From Terriglobus aquaticus (lineage in GTDB: Bacteria > Acidobacteriota > Terriglobia > Terriglobales > Acidobacteriaceae), in contig NZ_JAGSYB010000001.1 of the NCBI RefSeq assembly GCF_025685415.1, positions 1,860,001 to 1,924,000 on the forward strand: a DNA stretch of 64,000 nucleotides, read 5' to 3'. Below, in pieces: positions 47,809 to 64,000 of the stretch. Made by a program: the position numbers and the translations under genes. Position 1 is the stretch's first letter, and each line of letters starts with the position of its first letter. The notes under the pieces were generated by a model. It saw only the letters and a program-made list of their open reading frames with translations, ran no database searches and was not told where the DNA came from.

Positions 47809-49341
47809 CTACAAGCTCGCGATTGCAGGCCGCCGGGAGCCCCAGCCCGCCGCTCGCTCATACGCGGCTGCCAGCGCCAGCACTCGGCCTTCGCTGAACC
47901 GCGGACCGGCGATCATCAGCCCGACCGGCAGGCCGCCCGGCGTAAAGCCGCACGGAATGCTGATCGCCGGGATTCCGTAGAGGTTGAACGCCAGCGAGTT
48001 GAAGTCGTTCGTCGGCTCCTCTGGCTGCGGCTTCTCTTCGCGGCCAAGTTCTTCCTGGATGGTGCGCGGCCCCACACGGTTCGTAGGCAGCACCACCAGG
48101 TCGAAGCCGTCGAAGGCGTCATCGATCGTCTTGCGCAACCCGGCCAGGTGCCACTGTGCCCGAATCAGGTCTACCGCTTTGCCGGCGGCGGTCTCGCCCG
48201 GATCGTTCAGTTCCTTAAACGTTCCATCGACCACACCGCGGGTCTGCAACTGGTAGTTGCCCGCGTGCCGGCGAAACAAATCCTGGTGTACCGCAGCCAC
48301 TTCGGCGGCGCGAACGGCCGTCCAGTCCAGCGCATCGACCGCAGGCAACTGCACGTCGCGCACGGACTGTACCAGTCCTTTGATCACGCCGATCGCAGTC
48401 TCGACCGCCGCCGCAGTCGCGGCATCCAGCTTGTCAAAAAAAGGCGCGCGCGGTACGCCTACCCGCAAGCCGCTGACCGGCTGCCGCATGGCCTGCACGT
48501 AGTCCTCGGGTGCATGCTCCACGCTGGCCACATCGTGCTTGTCATAGCCGGCCATCACGTTCAGCATCAGCGCGGCATCTTCGACGGTGCGCGCCATCGG
48601 TCCGCAATGATCCAGCGAGTAGATCAGCGGGAAGATGCCGCCCAGCGACACCAAACCATACGTCGGCTTCAAACCGACCACGCCGCACCACGCAGCAGGG
48701 ATGCGGATGGATCCGCCGGTGTCGGTTCCCAGGGCCGCCGGCACCAGGCCCGCTGCGACTGCCGCCGCAGAGCCGCCTGAGGATCCGCCCGCCACGCGCT
48801 CCAGCGCCCACGGATTGTGCACCGGCCCGAAATAACTGGTGGCCGAGGTTCCACCCATGGCGAACTCATGCAGGTTGCTCTTGCCCAGCACCAGGGCACC
48901 GGCGGCGCGCAACCGGCTCACGACGAAGGCGTCGGCGGTCGGCACGCGATCGTCAAACACCATGCTGCCCACGGTGGTGCGCGTTCCCGCCGTGTCGATG
49001 TTGTCCTTGATCGCGACGGGCACACCATGCAGCGGGCCCCGAAAGCGCCCCTGCCTGGCCTCAGCATCCAGCGCTGCTGCCTCCTGCAGGGCCTGCTCAC
49101 GCCGCACTGTGATGAACGCGTCGAGCTTCGGATTCAGGGCGTCGACCCGCGTCAGCAGCGCCTGCACCAGCGCCTCGGAACGGAGCGTGCCCTGGCGGAT
49201 CCGGCCCGCAACCTCCGCTACGGTCAGCCAGGCGACCGCATCGGCCCGGGCTTCTCCTCGCAGCGGAAGCACCGGTGCCAGGGTGCAGGCCGCGCCGGCA
49301 GCCGATTGAAGAAGAAACTTGCGTCGAGTGGACTGCGGCAT
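47809..49341 (-). CDS. Tat-exported amidase (amidase-signature family)
   Basis: The 510-residue protein begins STRRKFLLQSAAGAACTLA, a Tat-like signal, then the amidase-signature enzyme: catalytic Lys in PVAIKDNIDTAG, the cis-Ser in VAGGSSGGSAAAVAA and the nucleophile Ser in GTDTGGSIRIPA. Family members hydrolyse amides, for example in GatA-like, fatty-acid amide or indole-acetamide reactions. Export suggests an extracellular amide substrate. It is convergent with polX. Confidence 0.9.
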   Translation of the reverse strand: MPQSTRRKFLLQSAAGAACTLAPVLPLRGEARADAVAWLTVAEVAGRIRQGTLRSEALVQALLTRVDALNPKLDAFITVRREQALQEAAALDAEARQGRFRGPLHGVPVAIKDNIDTAGTRTTVGSMVFDDRVPTADAFVVSRLRAAGALVLGKSNLHEFAMGGTSATSYFGPVHNPWALERVAGGSSGGSAAAVAAGLVPAALGTDTGGSIRIPAAWCGVVGLKPTYGLVSLGGIFPLIYSLDHCGPMARTVEDAALMLNVMAGYDKHDVASVEHAPEDYVQAMRQPVSGLRVGVPRAPFFDKLDAATAAAVETAIGVIKGLVQSVRDVQLPAVDALDWTAVRAAEVAAVHQDLFRRHAGNYQLQTRGVVDGTFKELNDPGETAAGKAVDLIRAQWHLAGLRKTIDDAFDGFDLVVLPTNRVGPRTIQEELGREEKPQPEEPTNDFNSLAFNLYGIPAISIPCGFTPGGLPVGLMIAGPRFSEGRVLALAAAYERAAGWGSRRPAIASL

Positions 49342-52797: not shown

Positions 52798-52977
52798 GGC
52801 AAGCGAACGCCGCACGCCGTAATGGTGCCCGGCGTTTAACAGCCCTCCTCCGAATACGATTGCGAGCCAGAACTTCAGACCACGAGCCACGGCACACGCG
52901 GTAATCGCGCGGCTGTGATGACAACCGCACAACCCACCAGCTATAACTCGCTCCAACACGCGCGCGCAGGAGCCCAG

Positions 52978-54147
52978 ATGCCGACCGAACCTACCGACAC
53001 CAAGGCCGAGACCAAAACCGAGAAATCCGCACCACGCGGCCTGGAAGGCATTGTCGCCACCACCAGCTCGATCTGCTGGATCGACGGCGACGCCGGCGTC
53101 CTCTCCTATCGCGGCATCGACATCCACGAGCTCGCCGCGCATTCCACCTTCGAAGAGACCACGTTCCTGCTCTGGTTCGGACATCTGCCCACCGAAGTAG
53201 AGCTGAAGGACTTTCGCCAGAAGCTCGCCGATGCACGCGCCCTGGACTGGCGCGTCGTTGAGTTCCTGAAGCAGATTCCGCCGCGCTCCAACCCGATGGA
53301 GGTGCTGCGCACGGCCGTCTCGCTCATGGGCATCTCCGACCCGGACGATAGCGACAGCTCGCACGCTGCAAACATCCGCAAGAGCTTTCGCCTGACTTCA
53401 CAGATCGCGATGGTCGTGGCCACCTTTGATCGCCTGCGCCGCAAGCTGCCCATCGTGGAACCCGACCGCAGCCTCTCGCACGCAGGCAATTTCCTGTGGA
53501 TGCTTACAGGTGAGAAGCCCATCCACGAAGCCGAGCGCGCCTTTGACGTTGCGCTGATCCTGCACGCGGACCACGAACTGAACGCCAGCACCTTTGCCGC
53601 GCGCGTGATCGCGGCCACGCTTTCCGACGTTCACTCCGCCATCACCGGAGCCATCGGCGCTCTAAAAGGCCCGCTGCACGGCGGCGCCAACGAAGCTGTG
53701 GCCAAGCTCCTGACTGAGATCGAAGCAGGGCACGCCGACCCCGTCGAGCATGTGCGCGGCATGCTGGCGCGCAAGGAGAAAGTCTCCGGCTTCGGTCACC
53801 GCGTGTACAAGACAGAAGATCCGCGTGCCACCCACCTGCGCCGCATGTCCAAGGACCTGTCGACCGCCGCGGGCAACACCAAGTGGTACGACATGTCGGA
53901 GGCGATCGAACAGTTCGTGCGCGGCGAAAAGAAGCTGAACGCGAATGTGGACTTCTACTCCGCCAGCACCTACACCACGCTCGGCATCCCGACAGACCTC
54001 TTTACGCCGATCTTCGCGGTCAGCCGCATCTCCGGCTGGGCGGCGCACGTGATGGAGCAGCACGAGAACAATCGCCTTATCCGCCCACGCGCGGACTACA
54101 CTGGCCCGGCTTACCCTGCGCCCTACATCCCCGTCCAGGACCGGTAG
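52978..54147 (+). CDS. gltA: Citrate synthase
   Basis: The 389-residue enzyme condenses acetyl-CoA and oxaloacetate in the citric acid cycle. The three catalytic residues are in ILHADHELNASTFAAR, PLHGGANEAV and NVDFYSAST, and GFGHRVYK is present. The first 30 residues (rich in T, E and K) are variable. The ATG at 52978 has GCAGGAG at the right distance; an upstream ATG at 52915 would add 21 residues. The protein is close in length to the hexameric and Gram-positive dimeric types, and lacks the long N-terminal extension of the E. coli enzyme. Confidence 0.94.
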   Translation: MPTEPTDTKAETKTEKSAPRGLEGIVATTSSICWIDGDAGVLSYRGIDIHELAAHSTFEETTFLLWFGHLPTEVELKDFRQKLADARALDWRVVEFLKQIPPRSNPMEVLRTAVSLMGISDPDDSDSSHAANIRKSFRLTSQIAMVVATFDRLRRKLPIVEPDRSLSHAGNFLWMLTGEKPIHEAERAFDVALILHADHELNASTFAARVIAATLSDVHSAITGAIGALKGPLHGGANEAVAKLLTEIEAGHADPVEHVRGMLARKEKVSGFGHRVYKTEDPRATHLRRMSKDLSTAAGNTKWYDMSEAIEQFVRGEKKLNANVDFYSASTYTTLGIPTDLFTPIFAVSRISGWAAHVMEQHENNRLIRPRADYTGPAYPAPYIPVQDR

Positions 54148-54192: not shown

Positions 54193-54591
54193 TCAGTGCT
54201 GACGCGCGAAGGCCGCGGACGCTTTGCCATCAGCGTCCGCCTCCCCGAGCGTCATCGCGGAGATGCATCCCTCCCGCATGGCGTATACGTGCAGCACCTC
54301 GCCATCGAACAGCAGATCACCCGAAAGACTCCGCACGACCTGGTGCACTCGCACTCGAACCTTGCCATCCGCTGCCATCAGGATTTCGATCGGCTCGACG
54401 TAGGGGTCGAACTCACTCCACTGGCGAGTCCAGTAGGCGCGGATCTCCTCTTTTCCGACTACAGTTCCGCCCTCTGACGCTTTGGGCCAATGCACGTCGC
54501 CTGTCATGTACTGCAGGCAGCCGTCGATGTCTCGTTGATTGAACGCGGCATAGACAGCTCGCATGGTGCGCTCGATCTCTTGCTCTTGCAT
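54193..54591 (-). CDS. NTF2/SnoaL-like small protein
   Basis: The 132-residue protein has the cone-shaped fold pattern of NTF2-like proteins: AVYAAFNQRDIDGCLQYM, VHWPKASEGGTVVGKEEIR, FDPYVEPIEILMAADGKVRV and HVYAMREG. The fold is used for many lyases, isomerases and binding proteins; a catalytic residue cannot be named. A larger open frame covers the region up to 55500, but only this C-terminal part is protein-like. It sits opposite the promoter of the catabolic locus, divergent from hisD-like 1. Confidence 0.8.
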   Translation of the reverse strand: MQEQEIERTMRAVYAAFNQRDIDGCLQYMTGDVHWPKASEGGTVVGKEEIRAYWTRQWSEFDPYVEPIEILMAADGKVRVRVHQVVRSLSGDLLFDGEVLHVYAMREGCISAMTLGEADADGKASAAFARQH

Positions 54592-54645
54592 TGCAGGTAC
54601 GCCTCCTTCCCACCCTAAAGCTTTTCTGGCGGCGAGCGGGGCTGT

Positions 54646-54675
54646 TTGGCAAGCCGGCCGTCTTGGATGTATACC
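54646..54675 (+). promoter_or_regulatory. Predicted promoter of the HisD-like locus
   Basis: TTGGCA (54646-54651) and TATACC (54670-54675) are separated by 18 bases; the ATG of hisD-like 1 is at 54742, giving a leader of about 60 bases. Within the spacer, CAAG-8-CTTG forms an inverted repeat that a repressor could use. Confidence 0.4.
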
Positions 54676-54741
54676 GGGGTTCGGCGGACTTCTGTCGCCG
54701 CACTGCCCGCGAACGAGACACCCGGAGTACACGGCTACATC

Positions 54742-56097
54742 ATGGCTACATATCTGAAACAGGGCGCCACTGCAGTCGCCCGGCAGGAACGCGACCTCCA
54801 GGTGCGCGAAACCGTCGAGCGCATCCTGGCCGATGTGCAAGCGCGTGGAGATGCGGCCGTCCGCGAGTTGAGCGTTCGCTTCGACGGCTGGGATCGCGAC
54901 AGCTATCGCCTGAGCTCCGCCGAGATCGACGCCTGCATGGCCGCGCTTAGCCGCCAGGACATCGCAGACATCGAGTTTGCTCAGACGCAGGTGCGCAACT
55001 TCGCTCGCATCCAGCGCGACAGCATGCGCGACGTCGAGGTGGAGACGCTGCCCGGCGTGGTGCTGGGCCACCGCAACATTCCGGTGAACGCCGCGGGCTG
55101 CTACGTTCCCGGCGGCAAGTATCCGCTGCTCGCCTCGGCGCACATGTCGGTGATCACTGCCAAGGTTGCGGGTGTGAAGCGTGTGGCCACGTGCGCTCCG
55201 CCATTTCAGGGCAAGCCCGCTGCCGCAATCGTCGCCGCGCAGGCCATGGCGGGTGCGGACGAGATCTACTGCCTCGGCGGCGTGCAGGCCATTGCAGCGA
55301 TGGCGCTCGGCACAGAAAGCATCGCCCCGGTGGACATGCTGGTCGGCCCCGGCAACGCGTTCGTTGCGGAAGCCAAGCGCCAGCTCTTCGGCCGCGTCGG
55401 CATCGACCTGTTCGCCGGCCCGACAGAGACCCTGGTCATTGCGGATGACAGCGTGGACGGCGAGATGTGCGCCACCGATTTGCTGGGCCAGGCGGAACAC
55501 GGTCCCGACAGCCCCGCGATCCTGCTGACCACCTCACGTTCGCTCGCCGAAGATACCCTGCGTGAAGTCGAACGCCTGCTCGGCATTCTGCCTACCGCCG
55601 CGATCGCGCGCGCCGCGTGGGAGACGCACGGCGAGGTCATTGTGGCCGTGAGCGACGAAGAGATGGTGCGCATTGCCGACGGCATCGCCTCGGAACACGT
55701 GCAGGTCATGACGCGCGATCCCGAGTACTTCCTAACAAACATGACCAACTACGGCGCGCTCTTCCTGGGACCACGCACGAACGTGGCGTACGGCGACAAG
55801 GTCATCGGCACCAACCACACCCTGCCCACGCGCAAGGCCGCGCGCTACACGGGCGGCCTGTGGGTCGGCAAGTTCCTGAAGACCTGCACCTACCAGCGCG
55901 TGCTGACCGACGAAGCCTCTGCCGAGATCGGCGAAATTTGCTCGCGCCTCTGCGCCCTGGAAGGTTTCATCGGCCACGGCGAACAAGCCAACGTGCGTGT
56001 GCGCCGCTACGGCCATCGCGACGTGCCGTACGCCACCGCAGCGCAACCGGTGAAGATTACGGAGCACGCCGAGGAACAGCAGCCCGTCACGGCATGA
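54742..56097 (+). CDS. HisD-like NAD-dependent alcohol dehydrogenase 1
   Basis: The 451-residue protein is a member of the histidinol dehydrogenase superfamily, zinc enzymes that oxidise a primary alcohol to a carboxylate in two steps with NAD+. Seen: [33 protein letters not shown], the zinc ligands Gln and His in LLGQAEHG, the base pair Glu-His in [28 protein letters not shown] and the last histidine in GFIGHG. The his biosynthesis neighbours are absent. HisD paralogues such as HpsN act on other diols, including dihydroxypropane sulfonate. The ATG at 54742 lacks a good ribosome binding site. SDR start overlaps its stop by four bases. Confidence 0.88.
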
Positions 56098-56891
56098 GCT
56101 CCTCGCCTGCATCTCCGGAGCCCTTGCCGAAACTTCCAGCTACGCCTTCCATGCGACTCGATGGAAAGCGCGCGCTGGTCACCGGTGCCGGCCGTGGCAT
56201 CGGCCTTGCCGCCGCGGCGGCGCTGGCGGAGGCGGGCGCGCACGTAGTTCTGCTTGCACGCTCTGCTGGAGAAATCGAAGCCGCGTCACAGGCCATTCGG
56301 CAAAACGGCGGCTCCGCGGAAGCCCTGGCCTGCGACGTGCTGGATCTCCCGGCCGTGCAGCAGGCTATTGCGGACCAGACCCCGTTCGACATCCTCGTGA
56401 ACAACGCCGGAACGAACCGGCCCGCGCCATTCTCCAGCGTCACGATCGAGGACTTCGACGCCGTTCTCAACCTCAATCTGCGCTCCGCCTTTTTCGTCGC
56501 ACAGGCAGTGGCGCAGCGCATGATCGCGTCACAGGTTCGCGGCTCCCTCATTCACATCACTTCGCAAATGGGTCACGTGGGCGGCCGCGAGCGCACCGTC
56601 TACTGCGCCTCGAAGTGGGCAATGGAGGGCATGAGCAAATCGATTGCGCTCGACCTTGCATCACACGGCATCCGCTCCAATACGATCGCTCCCACCTTCA
56701 TCGAAACCGAACTGACTCGGCCGTTCCTGCAGGCGAACGACTTCCAGAACTTCGCGCTTAGCAAGATCAAACTCGGCCGTCTCGGAACGGTTGAAGACCT
56801 GATGGGCGCCGTCGTCTTTCTCGCGTCATCAGCCTCTGCTCTCATCACCGGCACCAGCATCGTCGTCGATGGCGGTTGGACCGCCGACTAG
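56094..56891 (+). CDS. Short-chain dehydrogenase/reductase (SDR)
   Basis: The 265-residue classical SDR has the NAD(P)-binding [25 protein letters not shown], and the active site tetrad around HITSQMG and VYCASKWAM (Tyr and Lys in YCASK). The ending [14 protein letters not shown] is standard. Near the coenzyme the acidic or basic residue is not clear, so NAD versus NADP is open. The start ATG overlaps the previous stop (ATGA), so it is translationally coupled to hisD-like 1. It probably interconverts an alcohol and a ketone in the same pathway. Confidence 0.93.
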
Positions 56892-56915
56892 TTCATCAGC
56901 AACACTCAGGAGCCC

Positions 56916-58064
56916 ATGCCCGACCGTATTCTGACCACGCACGTAGGTTCGCTGCCGCGCAGCCGCGAAGTCACCGACCTGATCTTTGCGCAGGAGCGCG
57001 GCGAGTTCATCGAGCCCGCTGACTTCGACCGCGTAATCGGCGAGGCCGTGGACGCCTGTGTCGCGCGCCAGGTCGAGTCCGGCGTCGATCTCGTCTCCGA
57101 CGGGGAGATGTCGAAGATCTCGTACGCTACCTACATCAAGGACCGCATCACCGGGTTCGATGGCGACAGCCCGCGCACGCCGCCTGCTGACCTGGAAGCG
57201 TTTCCGAGCTTTCTGGAGCGGCAGGCACGCGGTGGTGGCACGCCTACCTATCGCCGTCCGCGCTGTGTTGGCGAGATCCATCCCAGGACGCTCGCTCCGC
57301 TGGACGAAGACGTCGCTCACCTGAAGCATGCCATCGCTGCTCACAAGCCGAACGGTGCCTTCATGAACGCGGCATCGCCCGGCGTGATCGCGCTGTTCCA
57401 GCCGAACGACTTCTATCCCACGCAGGACGCCTACCTGGAAGCTCTCGCGGAGGCGATGCGGCCCGAGTACGAGGCCATTGTCGCCGCGGGCTTCATTCTG
57501 CAGCTCGACAGTCCCGACTTAGGCCTGGGCCGCCACATGATGTACAAGGACCGCAGCGAGCCCGAGTACCTGCAACTGATCGAGCGGCATGTGGACGTGC
57601 TGAATCATGCCCTGCGCAACGTGCCCGGCGACCGTGTTCGCATGCACGTGTGCTGGGGTAACTACGAGGGCCCGCACCACTGCGACGTGGAGATGGGCAC
57701 CATCCTGCCGGTGCTGATGAAGGCCAAGCCGCAGGGCCTGCTGTTTGAAACGGCAAACCCGCGCCACCAGCATGACTGGACCTACTTCCGCGACATGCTC
57801 AGCGTCGTGCCGGAGGATCGCGTGCTGATCCCCGGCGTGATCGACTCGACCACCAACTTCATCGAGCACCCACAGGTTGTCGCGCTGCGCATCCAGCAGT
57901 TTGCGGACATCGTGGGCCGCGAGCGCGTGCAGGCCGGCACCGATTGCGGCTTCTCCACCTTTGCCGGGTATGGCGCTGTGGACCCGGAGATCGTCTACGC
58001 AAAGCTGGCGACGCTTGCGGAGGGCGCTGCGATCGCCAGCGAACGCATGTGGAAGGCCGCGTGA
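56916..58064 (+). CDS. MetE-II family (UROD/MetE-like) enzyme
   Basis: The 382-residue protein is related to the C-terminal half of cobalamin-independent methionine synthase. Motifs are LTTHVGSLPRSREV, FMNAASPGVIALFQ, MHVCWGNYEGPHHCDV (zinc His and Cys), ETANPRHQHDW and TDCGFSTFAGYG (zinc Cys). The protein has no N-terminal folate-type half, so standard methionine synthesis is unlikely. Related enzymes transfer methyl or thiol groups or split C-S or C-C bonds. It starts 24 bases after the SDR and its stop overlaps the aldolase GTG. Confidence 0.88.
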   Translation: MPDRILTTHVGSLPRSREVTDLIFAQERGEFIEPADFDRVIGEAVDACVARQVESGVDLVSDGEMSKISYATYIKDRITGFDGDSPRTPPADLEAFPSFLERQARGGGTPTYRRPRCVGEIHPRTLAPLDEDVAHLKHAIAAHKPNGAFMNAASPGVIALFQPNDFYPTQDAYLEALAEAMRPEYEAIVAAGFILQLDSPDLGLGRHMMYKDRSEPEYLQLIERHVDVLNHALRNVPGDRVRMHVCWGNYEGPHHCDVEMGTILPVLMKAKPQGLLFETANPRHQHDWTYFRDMLSVVPEDRVLIPGVIDSTTNFIEHPQVVALRIQQFADIVGRERVQAGTDCGFSTFAGYGAVDPEIVYAKLATLAEGAAIASERMWKAA

Positions 58065-58819
58065 TCCAGCAATCTCTCAAGGACAGGCTTGCCGCGCGCG
58101 AGGTCATCGTCGGCACCTTCGTCAAGACGCCCTCACCGATCGTTGCGGAAGTGCTGGCGCTTACGCCGTTGGACTGCATCTGCCTCGACGCGGAACATGC
58201 GCCGTTTGACCGCGGCACGCTCGACACCTGCATCCTCGCAGCGCGTGCGGGCGGTATGGATTCGCTTGTTCGCATCCCATCCGCCGCGCCGGAGCACATC
58301 CTGAACGCGCTGGACTGCGGCGCAACCGGCGTCGTCGTTCCGCATGTCCGCTCTGCCGAGCAGGCCGAAGCCATCGCCAAGGCCGCTCACTACGGCAACG
58401 GCGGTCGAGGCTATGCGGGATCGTCGCGAGCCGCTGGCTACAACACGGTCGCCATGGCGCAGCACCAGCAGAACAGCGCCGCCCGCACCGTGGTCATCGC
58501 GCAGATCGAAGATCCCGAAGCGGTGGACGACATCGAAGCCATCGCTCGCGTTTCGGGCGTCGATGCCCTCTTCATTGGCCGCGTCGATCTGACCGTCGCG
58601 TACGGTGCGGAAAGCCAGGACGACCCGCGCGTGGTCGCCGCGGTAGACCGCATCGTGACCGCCGCCGTTGCCGCGGACAAGCCGGTGGGCATGTTCCTCG
58701 CCCGCGTCGAAGACGTGCCGCACTGGCGGGAACGCGGAGCGACACTCTTCCTCCTCGGCTCCGATCACACCTTCCTGCTGGCGGGTGCTCGCGATCTCGC
58801 AGCGCGCGTGAAACACTAA
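58061..58819 (+). CDS. HpcH/HpaI aldolase-citrate lyase family
   Basis: The 252-residue protein starts with a GTG that overlaps the previous stop (GTGA). Family motifs are LDAEHAPFDR with the catalytic His, VIAQIEDPEAVDDIE with the metal Glu and FIGRVDLTVAYG with the metal Asp. These class II aldolases cleave 2-keto-3-deoxy or 4-hydroxy-2-oxo acids to pyruvate and an aldehyde with a divalent metal. In the locus it would be the carbon-splitting step. Confidence 0.9.
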   Translation: MIQQSLKDRLAAREVIVGTFVKTPSPIVAEVLALTPLDCICLDAEHAPFDRGTLDTCILAARAGGMDSLVRIPSAAPEHILNALDCGATGVVVPHVRSAEQAEAIAKAAHYGNGGRGYAGSSRAAGYNTVAMAQHQQNSAARTVVIAQIEDPEAVDDIEAIARVSGVDALFIGRVDLTVAYGAESQDDPRVVAAVDRIVTAAVAADKPVGMFLARVEDVPHWRERGATLFLLGSDHTFLLAGARDLAARVKH

Positions 58820-58849
58820 GCGAAACACCACCAGAGGACACACAGAATC

Positions 58850-60166
58850 ATGAGCACGGAGCAGTTTCCGGCAGGCTTTGAAGGACGGGTGCGCTATACC
58901 AAGGCACCGGGGCGCAGTTCCGTTGCAGACACAGCCGATGTCGTCGGCCTGGTGCAGGAGATCCTGCGTGAGGTGCAGAACCGCGGTGACGCCGCAATCC
59001 GCGAGTACTCGCAGCGCTTCGACAAAGCCGACCTTGATCAATTCGAGGTCAGTGCAGCCGACCGGCAGGCCGCCGTGGATGCACTCGAAAAGCAGACCCG
59101 TGAAGACACCGAGTTCGCCATCGAAAACGTGCGCCGCTTCGCGCAGGCGCAGCTCGGCACTATCCAGCCGCTCGAAATCGAAGCGCTGCCCGGCCTGCAC
59201 CTGGGCCATCGGGTCATCCCCATCGAGCGCGTGGGCGCCTACGTTCCCGGTGGCCGCTTCCCCCTGCTCTCCGCGCCCATCATGACAATCGTTCCGGGCA
59301 AGGTCGCGGGCTGCGATGAGGTCGTCGCCTGCCTGCCGCCGAATGCGCATCAGGCGATGATCGCGGGCTGCCATCTGTCCGGCGCAGACCGCATCTTCCG
59401 CATCGGCGGCGCACAGGCCATCGCGGCCATGGCGTTCGGCACGGAGTCGGTGCCGCAGGTGAACAAGATCGTCGGTCCCGGTAATGCGTTCGTGAACGAG
59501 GCCAAGCGCCAGGTGTTCGGACCGGTCGGCATCGACCAGCTCGCCGGACCGTCGGAGATCTTCGTGGTGGCCGACAGCACCGGCAAGCCCGACCTGATCG
59601 CCACCGATCTGCTGGCGCAGGCCGAGCACGACGTGCGCACCCGCGTGGGCCTGATCACCACGGACGAGAAGCTCGCTCTTGCCACCGCGGACGAGGTACA
59701 GAAGCAGCTCGAGACGCTCTCCACCGCGAAGATCGCCGCGGAAAGCTGGGCCAACTACGGCGAGATCACGCTCTGTGCCGATGAAGCCGCGATGATCGCC
59801 TACTCCGACTTCATCGCTGCCGAGCACCTGCAGGTGCACACCGCAGAGCCGCGCGAATTCGCGAAGAAGCTGCGCAACTACGGCTCACTGTTCATTGGCG
59901 AAAACGCCAGCGTGGTTTACAGCGACAAGTGCGTGGGCACGAATCACACGCTGCCCACCATGCACGCCGGCCGCTACACCGGCGGCCTGTGGGTCGGCTC
60001 GTATGTGAAGATCGCGACGCACCAGTGGCTCGACGACAGCGCCGTTGGCCTGGTCGCTGGGCCCGCAACGCGTCAGAGCGCCAGCGAGGGCCTGGAGGGC
60101 CATCGCCGCGCCGCCGCTGCCCGCGTGGATCGCAAGGCAGCCACCTTCGCCGCGCTCACGCGGTAG
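58850..60166 (+). CDS. HisD-like NAD-dependent alcohol dehydrogenase 2
   Basis: The 438-residue second HisD-family protein has the same essential parts as the first: [37 protein letters not shown] (zinc Gln/His), AAEHLQVH (Glu-His), [21 protein letters not shown] and GLEGH at the C-terminus. Two paralogues in one operon suggest two different alcohol substrates, two ends of one substrate, or a hetero-oligomer. Both keep catalytic residues. A terminator follows. Confidence 0.88.
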   Translation: MSTEQFPAGFEGRVRYTKAPGRSSVADTADVVGLVQEILREVQNRGDAAIREYSQRFDKADLDQFEVSAADRQAAVDALEKQTREDTEFAIENVRRFAQAQLGTIQPLEIEALPGLHLGHRVIPIERVGAYVPGGRFPLLSAPIMTIVPGKVAGCDEVVACLPPNAHQAMIAGCHLSGADRIFRIGGAQAIAAMAFGTESVPQVNKIVGPGNAFVNEAKRQVFGPVGIDQLAGPSEIFVVADSTGKPDLIATDLLAQAEHDVRTRVGLITTDEKLALATADEVQKQLETLSTAKIAAESWANYGEITLCADEAAMIAYSDFIAAEHLQVHTAEPREFAKKLRNYGSLFIGENASVVYSDKCVGTNHTLPTMHAGRYTGGLWVGSYVKIATHQWLDDSAVGLVAGPATRQSASEGLEGHRRAAAARVDRKAATFAALTR

Positions 60167-60186
60167 GCAAGCCGTACGCAAACAGA

Positions 60187-60220
60187 AAGGCCCGCGCATC
60201 TCGCGGGCCTTCTCTGTTTG
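60187..60220. terminator. Terminator between hisD-like 2 and the bicupin gene
   Basis: AAGGCCCGCG (60187-60196) pairs with CGCGGGCCTT (60202-60211) around CATCT, followed by CTCTGTTT. It can serve both convergent genes. Confidence 0.75.
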
Positions 60221-60248
60221 CACTGACTACAGCGCTCGTTGCACTGAA

Positions 60249-61331
60249 TTACGCGCTTGCGCCCGCCAGTTCCTCAATCGGTGCCGAAGCAAATACCGGC
60301 ATCTGTGGCTGCTCGGTGCCACGCACCACGAAGAGTACCGCCGGTGCCGACGAGGTGTTCCGGAAACTGTGCTGCACGCCCACGGGCATCGACAGCGTAT
60401 CGCCCGCACCCATCAGCAGGGACTCTTCCCCATCACCGTTCTTCCAGCCGACTTCCACCGTGCCGCTCTGGACGAACAACACCTCAACCTCCTTGCGCGC
60501 ATGCAGCGGCACATAGGCACCCGTCTGCAGCGTCAGCCGGCGCAGGTTAAAGTCATGCGGCCACCATCCCGCAATCGGCCCCGCCGGGAAGTGGTCCGGC
60601 GTCTCCTGCGGCACGATCACGCCAGCTTCTTCCACGCCCTCGCCGGCCAGCGGCGACTGGGGATTCGCCACCATCTGCTCGGCGCGGACAACGCAACGCT
60701 CAAGCTGCTCCAGCGACGGCGTCTTTAACTGCTCCAAAGCCGCTTCGCTCGGTGGCGTCTCCAACTCGACTTCCTTCAATTCGTAGTTGCCACTGGTCGT
60801 GTCAATCAGCTTGCCGCCCTTCGCGAGCTTCAGGCCGTGATCTTCCGCCGCCTTGAACACCGCGGGCGCCCACGTCACCTTGCCGGGATCGTCCTGCCCT
60901 AACGGCATCCACAGAAAGCCCTTGCCCTGGTCCAGCTTGCTGAAGCCGCGGAACATATGGATCGGCACGGAGGCGACATCGCCCGGACCAATGTCGAGCG
61001 ATCCATCTTCCTTATTGGGCCCAAAGTGCAGCCGCCAGTGGCCCGTGTGCACTACGAACACCTCGGCCGTGTCGTGGCTGTGTTGTGAGTTCACGCAGCC
61101 AAACGGCTGCCGCGCCCCACCGATGTTGAAGCCATGCTTCTCGCGGATGTGCACATGCTGGTCCGGGCTCTCCGACACTCCGGGCCCGATGATGGTGAAG
61201 TTCTCCTTCTCCGTGGATCCGGGCGTGCGCGTATCAATGAACGCCGTGCGGCAGGCCTGCAGGTCGGCATAGCGAACCAGGCGTTCGCGCATCGCCTCAA
61301 GCGTCCAGGCGGAAGGATTTATTGCTGACAT
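60249..61331 (-). CDS. Bicupin protein (gentisate-dioxygenase-like / isomerase-like)
   Basis: The 360-residue protein has two cupin barrels. The first (about 55-130) has the histidine cluster FGCVNSQHSHDTAEVFVVH; the second (about 265-335) has TGAYVPLHARKEVEVLFV and SMPVGVQHSF. The metal ligands look present in the second barrel. Bicupins include gentisate dioxygenase, oxalate decarboxylase and sugar isomerases. It stands on the opposite strand inside the locus and is divergent from the hydrolase. A longer frame to 61469 is not protein-like. The exact reaction cannot be told. Confidence 0.82.
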   Translation of the reverse strand: MSAINPSAWTLEAMRERLVRYADLQACRTAFIDTRTPGSTEKENFTIIGPGVSESPDQHVHIREKHGFNIGGARQPFGCVNSQHSHDTAEVFVVHTGHWRLHFGPNKEDGSLDIGPGDVASVPIHMFRGFSKLDQGKGFLWMPLGQDDPGKVTWAPAVFKAAEDHGLKLAKGGKLIDTTSGNYELKEVELETPPSEAALEQLKTPSLEQLERCVVRAEQMVANPQSPLAGEGVEEAGVIVPQETPDHFPAGPIAGWWPHDFNLRRLTLQTGAYVPLHARKEVEVLFVQSGTVEVGWKNGDGEESLLMGAGDTLSMPVGVQHSFRNTSSAPAVLFVVRGTEQPQMPVFASAPIEELAGASA

Positions 61332-61496
61332 GTCTGTGCTCCATGGCGCGGCAACAGGTCGCCTCCGCCGAACGAGTCGATTGTACCCACGCGCGAACCG
61401 CAGCGGCCGAAATCGGGCGGCTCGCGCCTTGCCTGTGCAGCGCTGGGCGTATAGCTTCATCCCGTGCACGCCGATCCTGATGCTGACGGAAACCTT

Positions 61497-62264
61497 ATGG
61501 ACCTACCGCTGGTATTGCTGCCCGGAACCCTGTGCGACGCCCGCATTTTTGAGCCCCTGCTGAAAAGGCTCGGCGCGCAGAACACGCACGTTTTTCTCAC
61601 AGCCGAAGCGCCGTCCCTTGAGCAGGCCGCAGAGGAGGTCCTCGCCACGGCGCCCGCGCGCTTTGCCCTTGTCGGCTTCTCGCTCGGCGGCATGGTGGCC
61701 ATGGAGGCGGTGCTGCGCGCACCCACCCGTGTCTGTGGCCTCGCTCTGCTCAGCACCACGCCGCTGGCGGTGCCGCCAGAACGCCTTGCCAGCCGCCGCG
61801 AGGCCGTAAGTCTGGCGGCCTCCATGCCCATGGCGCGATTCGTGCGCGAACATCTGTGGCCCGACTACGGCGGCCAGCCGAACGACACCCAACTGCTGCC
61901 GCTGCTGCAAGACATGGCAACAGCGCTCGGTCACACCGCCTTCGCTCGGCAGACGCAGCAGGCACTCGGGCGATCTGACTTCTGCAAGCGCCTCAGCGCT
62001 GTCAAATGCCCGGCCCTCATCGTCTCTGGCGAAGCGGATCCCTTGTGCCCGCCAGCCGCCCAGCAATATCTCGCCCGCGCACTTCCCCACAGCACGAGCG
62101 TGTTGCTTCCCGCAGCCGGACACTTCGCCGTGTACGAACAAGCGGACGAAATCGCCTCGGCTGTGGCAGCATGGTTCCAACCCATCTCCTCCGCACAGCA
62201 CAAGGCCTGGCTCGCATCCGGCATGCACCAGGGCGACGAACCGATGAAACGAGAGTCCGAGTGA
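61497..62264 (+). CDS. Alpha/beta hydrolase
   Basis: The 255-residue protein has the nucleophile elbow GFSLGG (Ser), the acid Asp in GEADPLCP and the base His in AAGHFAVYE. The family includes enol-lactonases, esterases and C-C hydrolases. The ATG at 61497 has ACGGAA ahead and begins the family pattern (DLPLVLLPGTLCD); a GTG at 61464 would add 11 residues. The stop overlaps the GTG of the next gene, so translation is coupled. Inferred: hydrolysis of a lactone or ester in the locus pathway. Confidence 0.88.
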   Translation: MDLPLVLLPGTLCDARIFEPLLKRLGAQNTHVFLTAEAPSLEQAAEEVLATAPARFALVGFSLGGMVAMEAVLRAPTRVCGLALLSTTPLAVPPERLASRREAVSLAASMPMARFVREHLWPDYGGQPNDTQLLPLLQDMATALGHTAFARQTQQALGRSDFCKRLSAVKCPALIVSGEADPLCPPAAQQYLARALPHSTSVLLPAAGHFAVYEQADEIASAVAAWFQPISSAQHKAWLASGMHQGDEPMKRESE

Positions 62265-63400
62265 GCCAGCAGCAAACCGCCGCAAACACAAACGCGTCGC
62301 AGGCAGACGAGGCGCAGCAGGACGGCAAAGTTCTACAGGTCGAGCGCCGCGACTTCACCGAGCTCGTCCCCAACGACCGTCCCCGTGTGCAGAGCATGCG
62401 CGGCTTCGATCCGGTCTACACCGACATCGTCGACTACATCGTTCGTTGCACGCACCGCATTTGGGACGAGCGCGATGTGGGCCTCATCTACACGCACTAC
62501 ACGCACAACTGCGTCCTCTACGGAGTGCTCGGCACCATGTACGACCGCGAAAGCATCGTCCGCGAAACGATCCAGCGCATCGTCGAGTTGCCCGATCGCC
62601 GTGGCATGGCAACGTCCATCGTGTGGCGCGGCGACGATGTGAACGGCTTCTACACCTCGCACATGACGCACGGCACCGGACGCCATACCGAGTACGGCAT
62701 CTTCGGCAAGCCGACGGGCCGCACGTTTGTCACACGCACCATCGTCGATTGCATGATCGTGGAGAACAAGATCTACCGCGAGTGGGTCGCCCGCGACAAC
62801 ATGGCGCAGTTGGTTCAACTCGGCATCGACCCGCACGAGTATGCCGCGACCATCGCGCAACGAAAGTTCGACGCCGGCGAAGCTGTTGTTGAGATCTCAG
62901 AAAATCGCCGTCTGCTGGGTCAGTACCCACCCGAAACCGAACCGGATCTTTCGCTCGCACACACCGAGCTGGAAGCGGAAGTCATGCGCTGGCTTCATCA
63001 CATCTTCAACAAGCGCATGTTCGGCAAGATCGGCGAGATCTACGCCTCGAACTGCCAGTGGCACGGACCGCTGATGCGTGAGCTCTATGGTCCCGCCGCG
63101 GTCATGCAGCAGACCATGCGCCTGGTCGCGATGATCCCTGACTGCGCTTACGTTCCGCAGCACATCTGCTCGGTCGAAAGCGAAGAGGGCGGCACCAAGG
63201 TCGCGATTCGCTGGGTGATGGACGGCCATCACCTTGGCTACGGTTCGCTGGGCGCGCCCACGGGTCACAAGCTGGTCGTGATGGGCTTTACGCATTTGCA
63301 CATTCGTGACGGCAAAATCGTCGACGAATGGACGCTCTACGACGAGCTCTCCATGCTCGTCCAACTGAAGCTCGGCGCTCTGCACCGCGCAGCCGCGTAG
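62261..63400 (+). CDS. Double NTF2/SnoaL-domain protein
   Basis: The GTG at 62261 overlaps the hydrolase stop. The 379-residue protein has an N-terminal disordered stretch (rich in Q and A), then two similar NTF2-like domains: the first about residues 45-190 (VDYIVRCTHRIWDERDVGLI, GTMYDRESIVRETIQRI), the second about 230-365 (WLHHIFNKRMFGKIGEIY, VMQQTMRLVAMIPDCAY, HLHIRDGKIVDEWTLYDE). Such domains serve as dehydratases, isomerases or cyclases. Two fused copies could form a pseudo-dimer. No catalytic residues can be named with confidence. It is coupled to the hydrolase and followed by the transporter. Confidence 0.82.
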   Translation: MSQQQTAANTNASQADEAQQDGKVLQVERRDFTELVPNDRPRVQSMRGFDPVYTDIVDYIVRCTHRIWDERDVGLIYTHYTHNCVLYGVLGTMYDRESIVRETIQRIVELPDRRGMATSIVWRGDDVNGFYTSHMTHGTGRHTEYGIFGKPTGRTFVTRTIVDCMIVENKIYREWVARDNMAQLVQLGIDPHEYAATIAQRKFDAGEAVVEISENRRLLGQYPPETEPDLSLAHTELEAEVMRWLHHIFNKRMFGKIGEIYASNCQWHGPLMRELYGPAAVMQQTMRLVAMIPDCAYVPQHICSVESEEGGTKVAIRWVMDGHHLGYGSLGAPTGHKLVVMGFTHLHIRDGKIVDEWTLYDELSMLVQLKLGALHRAAA

Positions 63401-63481
63401 CTGCATCCGGGCAGTCCGGCGTTCGGCAAGGCCGGGCTTCCCTGCCCAATCCTGTAGGCCAGATGCTCACTGGGGTGCCGT

Positions 63482-64000
63482 ATGCGCAGCAACCTCTTTC
63501 GCCGATCCCGTCCCTCCGCGGCGCTCGTCTCCGATCCCAACCTCGCCGTCCTGCAGACGGATGAGGGTTCCGTGGTCACGAGCTTGCCGCCGTCGGGTTC
63601 TGGCGCTCCAGGCGGCGGTCTTCTGCACCTGCCGCTTCGGCGAAGGCTAGTAGCATTCGGCTTCCTGCTGATCGCGGAGTTCTTCTACGGTTGGGCCTGG
63701 AACACCGTCGACGTCCTTCGCCCACTGTTCCGTGCCAGCCTCGGCCTCACGCTCACGCAGGCGGGCTCGGCCTATTCCGCGCAGGGCGCTGGCGCTCTCA
63801 TCGGCGCCATCTCCATCGGCCAACTTGCTGACAAGCTGGGCAAGCGCAACATGCTGGTCGTGGTCATGGCTGGCTATGGCGCGCTTCTGCTCGCGGGTAC
63901 GCTAGTCCACAGCTACGTCGGCCTGCTTCTGCAGCGGTTCGTGCTCGGCTTATTTCTTGGCGGCAGCTTCCCGGTTGTGGTTGGCATTTACGTGGAGCTG
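63482..64000 (+). CDS. Major facilitator superfamily transporter (partial, runs off the window)
   Basis: The ATG at 63482 opens a frame of 173 codons to the window edge. After a variable cytoplasmic N-terminus (about 50 residues), the protein has four membrane helices. FLLIAEFFYGWAWNTVDVLRP leads into the first helix pair, and the MFS signature GQLADKLGKRNML lies between helices 2 and 3. No stop is reached. The position after the hydrolase and double-NTF2 genes makes it the likely importer of the locus substrate or exporter of a product. Confidence 0.85.
   Translation, partial: MRSNLFRRSRPSAALVSDPNLAVLQTDEGSVVTSLPPSGSGAPGGGLLHLPLRRRLVAFGFLLIAEFFYGWAWNTVDVLRPLFRASLGLTLTQAGSAYSAQGAGALIGAISIGQLADKLGKRNMLVVVMAGYGALLLAGTLVHSYVGLLLQRFVLGLFLGGSFPVVVGIYVEL

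Follow-up and report, generated by a model that had tools for sequence, protein, structure and literature searches.

Parts of several described bacterial systems recur in a gene cluster at the end of the 64,000-nucleotide stretch of Terriglobus aquaticus DNA analysed here (positions 1,860,001 to 1,924,000 of contig NZ_JAGSYB010000001.1, assembly GCF_025685415.1; hereafter the window). The cluster encodes two HisD-like dehydrogenases (HisD1 and HisD2), a short-chain dehydrogenase/reductase (SDR), a MetE-like zinc protein, an HpcH/HpaI aldolase, a bicupin, an alpha/beta hydrolase, a double-NTF2 protein and an MFS transporter. Non-phosphorylative pathways for L-fucose and L-rhamnose resemble the cluster and its relatives in their SDR, lactonase-like amidohydrolase, HpcH/HpaI aldolase, LacI regulator and sugar-type transporter, but are not known to include HisD-like, MetE-like, bicupin or double-NTF2 proteins. 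The lower pathway of protocatechuate 4,5-cleavage and gallate degradation would share with the locus its proposed product, 4-carboxy-4-hydroxy-2-oxoadipate (CHA), and in Parasphingorhabdus marina its hydratase LigJ lies next to the related cluster, together with an aldolase of the LigK type. However, that pathway opens the ring with a LigB-type dioxygenase, whereas a bicupin is proposed for the step here and LigB was not found in the genome of either P. marina or T. aquaticus. Among solved proteins, HisD1 is nearest to HpsN of the hpsRNOUP-suyAB cluster of Cupriavidus pinatubonensis, a zinc enzyme of the HisD family that converts CH2OH to COOH and is encoded together with oxidoreductase genes and an MFS transporter (accessible text of PMC11382572); in the window's locus the sulfonate-site His is missing, the companion genes differ and SuyAB was not seen among the annotated neighbours. 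Core-MetE of Dehalococcoides and other single-domain MetE proteins share with the MetE-like protein the presence of just one catalytic barrel, whose zinc site is of the His-Cys-acid-Cys type, and Core-MetE is a known case of a single-barrel MetE with a donor other than the usual one (accessible text of PMC7005905). Core-MetE uses methylcobalamin, whereas the locus protein sits in a catabolic cluster and the substrate itself is proposed as the methyl donor.

Judged from its gene content, the cluster almost certainly encodes a conserved and undescribed catabolic pathway, which supports the preliminary description, in which two HisD-like dehydrogenases were assigned to a locus for catabolism. We propose, at about an even chance of being right, that the pathway degrades mycosporines, a reading whose substrate and every reaction we infer from gene content, conservation, residues and neighbouring genes that were observed directly. 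Mycosporines, the major natural ultraviolet filters of algae, cyanobacteria, fungi, lichens and corals, are methoxylated cyclohexenones in which one ring carbon is C(OH)(CH2OH) and the substituents are amino acids or amino alcohols. This substrate is favoured because it accounts together for the HisD and MetE relatives, the exchange of one aldolase for another, LigJ and LigK, and the serine and threonine genes of related loci, which no rival explanation does.

Conservation and origin of the cluster

A MetE alignment was used to scan contigs from 84,980 species and returned at least 593 stretches, 592 of them confirmed. From these the 80 best loci were retained (loci carry L numbers below); counts out of 59 refer to loci of at least 15 kb and exclude the 21 shorter ones. 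At identity thresholds of 60% for HisD1, 40% for the SDR, 30% for the bicupin, 45% for HpcH and 60% for HisD2, HisD1 was present in 53 of the 59 loci, the SDR in 48 and the bicupin in 52, while the double-NTF2 gene occurred in 54, the hydrolase in 42 and HpcH in 17. HisD1, SDR, bicupin and MetE were found together, within 10-kb flanks, in 45 of the 59, comprising alpha- and gammaproteobacterial records, one Chloroflexi (L073) and one SAR324 (L120), and the conservation beyond this genome that the preliminary description had left to be checked was thus established. Loci from Acidimicrobiia and Betaproteobacteria miss a threshold, mostly that of the SDR. HisD2 was far more restricted, being found only in L041, L046 and L071 of the 80 loci (2 of the 59). 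The Sphingomonas metagenome-assembled genome (MAG) that holds L046 carries HisD1-SDR-MetE-HpcH-HisD2-bicupin-hydrolase-double-NTF2 in identical order and orientation to the window, at 40-80% protein identity, and differs in an inserted LacI gene and in having its MFS gene upstream rather than downstream. The arrangement is therefore not a product of chance.

Within the window's own class no such conservation was seen. Of 200 genomes sampled from it, 24 (the window's own included) had a MetE match at 1e-30, none of them from another member of the window's family, and the next-best match reached 57% identity; at the thresholds used, the HisD1/SDR/bicupin/MetE set was present in none of 15 loci of distant MetE relatives from the class (51-57% identity), nor was any of these genes. 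In the MetE tree, the window copy stands beside that of Sphingomonas yunnanensis (support 95/91), inside a mostly Sphingomonadales clade of 10 rows (100/99). The simplest reading is that the cluster was probably acquired by transfer from Sphingomonas relatives, a question on which base composition is neutral (64.8% GC in the locus versus 63.5% in the first 54 kb of the window).

HisD-like and MetE-like proteins

The genome encodes three PF00815 proteins: HisD1, HisD2 and a third at C1:70478, which adjoins frames resembling hisI, hisG, hisC and hisB (named by eye, with no family search). The locus span examined contained no recognisable his gene, and a role for HisD1 and HisD2 in histidine biosynthesis was rejected, the his-like genes sitting elsewhere with a HisD of their own; the earlier placement of both proteins outside histidine biosynthesis therefore holds, as they are not the only HisD proteins of the genome. 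The solved structures nearest to HisD1 are the 2,3-dihydroxypropane-1-sulfonate (DHPS) dehydrogenases 8v35 and 8wwe (8v35, E 2.5e-117, versus E 3.9e-74 for the HisD structure 4g07), and it scores 396 bits against HpsN/(R)-DHPS dehydrogenase versus 253 bits against HisD. HisD2 is nearly equidistant from the two (E 6.6e-92 for (R)-DHPS dehydrogenase, E 6.9e-86 for HisD). At the positions of Glu318-His319 and Asp352-Lys353 of HpsN, both proteins have aligned EH and DK. In C. pinatubonensis HpsN, the sulfonate-binding residue is His126, the last of motif 122-126, which marks DHPS enzymes (accessible text of PMC11382572). At this position both proteins have Leu (GKYPL in HisD1, GRFPL in HisD2), and His closes the motif in none of the 62 HisD-cluster proteins that show it (64 scanned, two without a motif match). 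An HpsN-type role in DHPS breakdown was accordingly rejected for both, and the sulfonated diol suggested earlier as a substrate is unsupported because the HpsN-type His is missing from the two proteins.

The MetE-like protein has 382 amino acids and forms a single barrel that aligns with the C-terminal half of MetE; the N-terminal folate-binding barrel of two-barrel MetE is not present in it. The zinc ligands H244, C246, E278 and C344 are invariant in 29 aligned proteins, eight of them from outside the cluster, as are S12, E64 and D198, which we take to be the Ser, Glu and Asp of the homocysteine site. All seven residues line up with plant MetE; the alignment with Thermotoga MetE covers five, leaving out E278 and C344. 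Its predicted structure (predicted local distance difference test score, pLDDT, 91.8) has MetE as the nearest fold, with a template-modelling (TM) score of 0.75 and 15% identity over the best hit. The natural reading of these sequence features is a homocysteine methyltransferase that would take its methyl group from the substrate, which is proposed as the donor because the gene is embedded in a catabolic cluster. The methyl part of an earlier guess at methyl or sulfur chemistry pointed the right way, whereas a sulfonated substrate found no support. From the accessible text of PMC12366255, in which a single-domain MetE-like gene of Phaeobacter was knocked out, no link to this locus family could be drawn. 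In the MetE tree, the copies of L101, L067 and L078 form one clade with a different setting, in which TonB-looking proteins are encoded nearby and nothing matches HisD, the SDR or the bicupin.

Bicupin, aldolases and remaining enzymes

Residues H86, H88 and E92 of the bicupin are invariant across 33 sequences, and in a profile search its top match was quercetin dioxygenase (E 6.7e-8, remote), with gentisate dioxygenase matching weakly. A ring-opening dioxygenase is proposed from these sequence comparisons, and it is the weakest of the enzyme calls. The HpcH/HpaI protein, a class II pyruvate aldolase, scores above the cut-off of PF03328, falls short of the specific HpaI and GarL cut-offs, and contains AEHAP, RIPS, QIED and FIGRVDL, which we take to be the HpaI active-site motifs. 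In relatives, an RraA-type aldolase may be encoded, in which E111-x20-R132-D133 is invariant in 12 proteins; this acid-x20-Arg-Asp pattern is presumably the signature of RraA-type aldolases acting on CHA or 4-hydroxy-4-methyl-2-oxoglutarate. The two pyruvate aldolases, although unrelated, substitute for one another in most loci having one, and both are present in L066 and L073. The SDR contains TGxxxGxG and YxxSK, and the hydrolase is PcaD/BioH-like, below cut-off. No NCBIfam family exceeded its cut-off for the bicupins, the double-NTF2 proteins or the glutathione S-transferase (GST)-looking proteins tested. The latter are similar 210-amino-acid proteins encoded within the operon in L099 (4508-5137) and L114 (3582-4208), GST-looking by eye.

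Genes adjoining the cluster in related loci

Genes for the breakdown of serine and threonine lie beside the cluster in several relatives. Serine dehydratase, scoring over the TIGR00720 cut-off, was found in or beside the cluster in four of the 80 loci, where it follows the bicupin with an ATGA overlap (L062), lies 60 bases after the SDR (L065), is divergent from the hydrolase (L053) or terminates an SDR-TonB run (L043); in L043, L062 and L065 it is the sole copy found in the genome. With 46 serine dehydratase copies in 50 genomes, 0.24 would be expected in the loci versus the four observed (P 1.2e-4), or 0.39 when the expectation is scaled to all 80 loci, all of which were searched (P 7e-4); these P values concern serine dehydratase only and are a guide only, since catabolic genes cluster, and the 50 genomes, which also served the LigJ survey below, were hand-picked with the four positives known and 30 of the 80 loci left out. 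A fifth case is provided by Devosia aurantiaca (L139, 1834-7688), in which a second, partial cluster of the Roseobacter type (double-NTF2, substrate-binding protein, LacI, double-NTF2) is followed about 50 bases on by a serine dehydratase matched in two pieces. The same genome also has a HisD2-type cluster. Threonine ammonia-lyase follows the SDR and an AceE-like E1 gene in L047, with ATGA and GTGA overlaps, and in L051 lies 26 bases after the SDR, the locus ending within the gene. In L103 and L114, threonine dehydratase relatives of 38% identity, separated from the cluster by about 8 kb, were not counted, and tdh and kbl alongside the cluster on the opposite strand in L068 make a weak case. 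Shinorine and porphyra-334 bear Ser and Thr, respectively, among their amino acids. The composition of porphyra-334 is given as Gly:Thr (accessible text of PMC4665425).

Genes of the CHA lower pathway adjoin the cluster in P. marina (L049). There, 4 bases separate the end of LigJ (4-oxalomesaconate hydratase; 6dwv, E 1e-192) from the hydrolase, the gap from hydrolase to MetE is 14 bases if MetE starts at its likely GTG, HpcH comes next, and a CHA aldolase of the LigK type (3noj, E 2.6e-87) lies just upstream of LigJ and divergent from it. LigB gave no match in the P. marina genome, for which completeness is not given, in searches repeated to E 10, and none in the window's genome. LigJ occurred in seven of the 50 genomes, and in five of the six others LigB lay within about 6 kb of it, as the classical pathway would require. 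The pathway product is likely CHA or oxalomesaconate. The aromatic-ring product listed earlier among possible substrates pointed in the right direction, although mycosporines are now favoured and a gallate-type aromatic stands only as a rival. In the sixth other genome, a Yoonia MAG, no LigB was found and LigJ-LigK sits in an unrelated cluster (L138, 7496-9207, minus strand) with two small cupin-like proteins recognised by eye; this is possibly another LigB-free route to CHA.

The remaining neighbours differ between lineages. Roseobacter-type loci (e.g. L102) have the order sugar-type ABC transporter, SnoaL, HisD1, double-NTF2, SDR, LacI, double-NTF2, bicupin, MetE, hydrolase and RraA-type aldolase, while many sphingomonad and gammaproteobacterial loci have TonB receptors, SSS or MFS transporters, HpcH/HpaI and often an amidohydrolase instead of the ABC transporter and RraA. 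Homologues of the MFS transporter adjoin the cluster in L041, L043, L046, L047, L050 and L051. In L092 (14436-18056), a methionine gamma-lyase (over the NCBIfam cut-off) and an AceE-like E1 gene, 53% identical to the E1 adjoining the threonine dehydratase in L047, are located some 2 kb beyond the cluster; this single case fits the proposal because a demethylase that makes methionine would feed such an enzyme.

A proposed route of mycosporine breakdown

Uptake would rely on the MFS transporter in T. aquaticus and on TonB/SSS systems or the sugar-type ABC transporter in relatives. The amino substituents would then be released, for which the double-NTF2 protein (through dehydration or amine release) and the hydrolase are candidates, and the freed amino acids would be broken down, in genomes that encode them nearby, by serine or threonine dehydratase. 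HisD1 is predicted to convert the CH2OH of the ring into COOH by two NAD-dependent oxidations, with zinc and the adjacent tertiary OH keeping the substrate in place much as DHPS is held by HpsN. The MetE-like protein would transfer the O-methyl group to homocysteine, and the bicupin may carry out an O2-dependent opening of the resulting enediol or ring, yielding CHA either directly or via a dehydrated, gallate-like stage and oxalomesaconate. As the last step, HpcH/HpaI, or the RraA-type aldolase in relatives, would cleave CHA to pyruvate and oxaloacetate.

The chemistry can be followed on paper with 4-deoxygadusol, which has C1=O, C2-OMe, C3-OH, C4H2, C5(OH)(CH2OH) and C6H2. Oxidation of the CH2OH would give C5(OH)(COOH) and demethylation a C2-C3 enediol, and O2-dependent cleavage between C2 and C3 would then give HOOC-CO-CH2-C(OH)(COOH)-CH2-COOH, which is CHA. 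Alternatively, water could be lost first to give 4-O-methylgallate, and gallate cleavage would lead to oxalomesaconate, the substrate of LigJ. On paper, both routes require activities that the cluster offers. Bacteria are described as converting shinorine and porphyra-334 to mycosporine-glycine and 4-deoxygadusol (accessible text of the review PMC3083659).

HisD2 marks a variant form, and may serve to oxidise the amino alcohol that fungal mycosporines carry. Glutaminol is described as a constituent of such fungal compounds in the accessible text of PMC4665425, and that of PMC3083659 reports mycosporine-glutaminol from terrestrial cyanobacteria and oxo-mycosporines in lichens. Glutaminol mycosporines would suit HisD2 and the amidase found in L046 and L071 because glutaminol, like histidinol, is an amino alcohol.

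Evidence against the proposal and alternative substrates

A number of observations weigh against mycosporines as the substrates. No serine or threonine gene is present at the window's locus itself and no LacI lies beside it, the genome's best match to the LacI of L046 having 30% identity; 14 of the 59 loci miss the threshold for HisD1, the SDR or the bicupin; the annotated conserved neighbours included no recognisable C1-transfer gene, and no enzyme cleaving C-N bonds was identified. Adjacency of LigJ/LigK to the cluster was seen in one genome only, and the unstated completeness of that genome and the LigB-free Yoonia MAG count on the same side. The zinc and homocysteine-site residues of the MetE-like protein are kept equally in MetE relatives outside the cluster, and we know of no precedent for zinc-thiol demethylation of an enol ether. 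Use of the MetE-like protein may also be wider than this cluster, because six loci (L045, L067, L074, L078, L089 and L101) carry MetE relatives of 61-76% identity with HisD1, SDR and bicupin all missing nearby. As for the bicupin, the third His of the metal site of classic cupin dioxygenases, expected in motif 2 of its conserved domain, has no invariant counterpart across the 33 sequences, and its model (pLDDT 91.1) has oxalate decarboxylase as its nearest Foldseek match (TM 0.55), with general cupin matches only.

Evidence that suits a sugar likewise tells against mycosporines: the LacI of relatives is nearest to RbsR/PurR (below cut-off) and is accompanied by sugar-type ABC transport, the amidohydrolase of relatives is a weak match to L-fuconolactonase, and in L111 (4607-5539) a PfkB-type sugar kinase, below specific cut-offs, lies 25 bases past MetE. 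On these grounds, and because its aldolase is of the HpcH/HpaI family, the cluster could serve an O-methylated, deoxy or branched sugar acid, with the SDR oxidising it, the fuconolactonase-like amidohydrolase opening a lactone, HisD forming the acid, the MetE-like protein demethylating and HpcH/HpaI or RraA releasing pyruvate. We consider this unlikely, as the L111 kinase is a single case, no sugar-acid dehydratase or other such kinase was seen among the annotated conserved neighbours, the IlvD found 229 bases past the aldolase in L118 alone matches the branched-chain amino acid enzyme, and the serine and threonine dehydratases and LigJ/LigK without LigB would be left unexplained. These last two genes in P. 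marina, a true LigJ and a CHA aldolase, speak for a gallate-type O-methylated aromatic whose ring the bicupin would open ahead of LigJ or aldolase steps, as do the distant relationship of the bicupin to quercetin dioxygenase, its weaker one to gentisate dioxygenase, and the PcaD and aromatic acid symporter matches of the hydrolase and MFS transporter, both below cut-off. An aromatic substrate is nevertheless improbable: it would leave the serine and threonine genes and the LacI and sugar-type transporters unexplained, and HisD-family enzymes bind their substrate on zinc via a group next to the CH2OH, which suits a vicinal diol over a benzyl alcohol (a deduction from the accessible text of PMC11382572).

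The high HpsN score of HisD1 is what speaks for DHPS or another sulfonate, with HisD1 acting as HpsN. Such a substrate is very improbable given the Leu at the sulfonate-binding position of both proteins and the lack of His there throughout the motif-bearing cluster proteins; moreover, no sulfite-releasing gene was seen among the annotated conserved neighbours, at which no family search for one was aimed. Finally, the variable gene order and the several MetE-like loci without the remaining genes could reflect a loose neighbourhood with no single shared pathway. We give this little credence, since four genes are kept together in 45 of the 59 loci across proteobacterial classes, Chloroflexi and SAR324, and start and stop codons overlap in the window.

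Layout of the locus in T. aquaticus

All genes named in the preliminary description are present with clean frames, and their exact starts were refined (Table 1). The span originally assigned to the locus, 54193-64000, stands for nine genes but not for its first open reading frame, a lone SnoaL_2 frame (54193-54612, minus strand) that was rejected as a member, being reported in no related locus, and the MFS gene runs past the end of the window. A Pfam family was assigned to each of the eight genes tested, which did not include the MFS gene; the MFS protein matched MFS models, all below cut-off, the best being an aromatic acid/H+ symport family. Frames downstream of it are unrelated-looking genes (by eye). 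Citrate synthase (52915-54147) was also rejected as a member, having among related loci only a 28% match, in L101. An amidase gene (47809-49341, minus strand), whose product looks by eye GatA-like and has a Tat-like N-terminus, was not counted, being 5 kb from the cluster and on the opposite strand. Relatives of this amidase, at about 40% identity over partial length only, directly precede HisD1 in L046 and L071.

Table 1 Genes of the cluster, with coordinates in the window
Gene	Coordinates	Strand	Family and remarks
HisD1	54742..56097	+	PF00815
SDR	56094..56891	+	adh_short_C2; ATGA overlap with HisD1
MetE-like	56916..58064	+	Meth_synt_2
HpcH/HpaI aldolase	58061..58819	+	PF03328 (HpcH_HpaI); GTGA overlap with MetE-like
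HisD2	58850..60166	+	PF00815
Bicupin	60249..61331	- (convergent)	Cupin_2
Alpha/beta hydrolase	61497..62264	+	Abhydrolase; GxSxG
Double-NTF2 (SnoaL-type)	62261..63400	+	PF07366/PF12680; GTGA overlap with hydrolase
MFS transporter	63482..64000, onward to window position 64798	+	Full frame read from L004

Possible implications for mycosporine turnover

We know of no bacterial genes described for mycosporine breakdown and of no published pathway family for it, and among the matches listed in a literature search (titles and abstract openings, with subscription papers and preprints little covered) no mycosporine catabolic gene cluster appeared in published work on the subject. In its fullest form, the proposal is that this is the first mycosporine catabolic pathway, widespread among ocean and soil bacteria, in which a B12-free zinc methyltransferase would take the methoxy group to methionine, a HisD homologue would form a quinate-like acid and the bicupin would open the ring into the CHA route without LigB, with the HisD2 form, which has an amidase by HisD1 in two loci, consuming fungal mycosporine-glutaminol; we put this forward as a tentative possibility, somewhat short of an even chance. 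HpsN-like proteins without His126 could be miscounted as those of DHPS degraders. If the proposal is true, the cluster would supply marker genes for mycosporine turnover in oceans and soils, and would represent a new route into central metabolism with new roles for relatives of HisD, MetE and the cupins.

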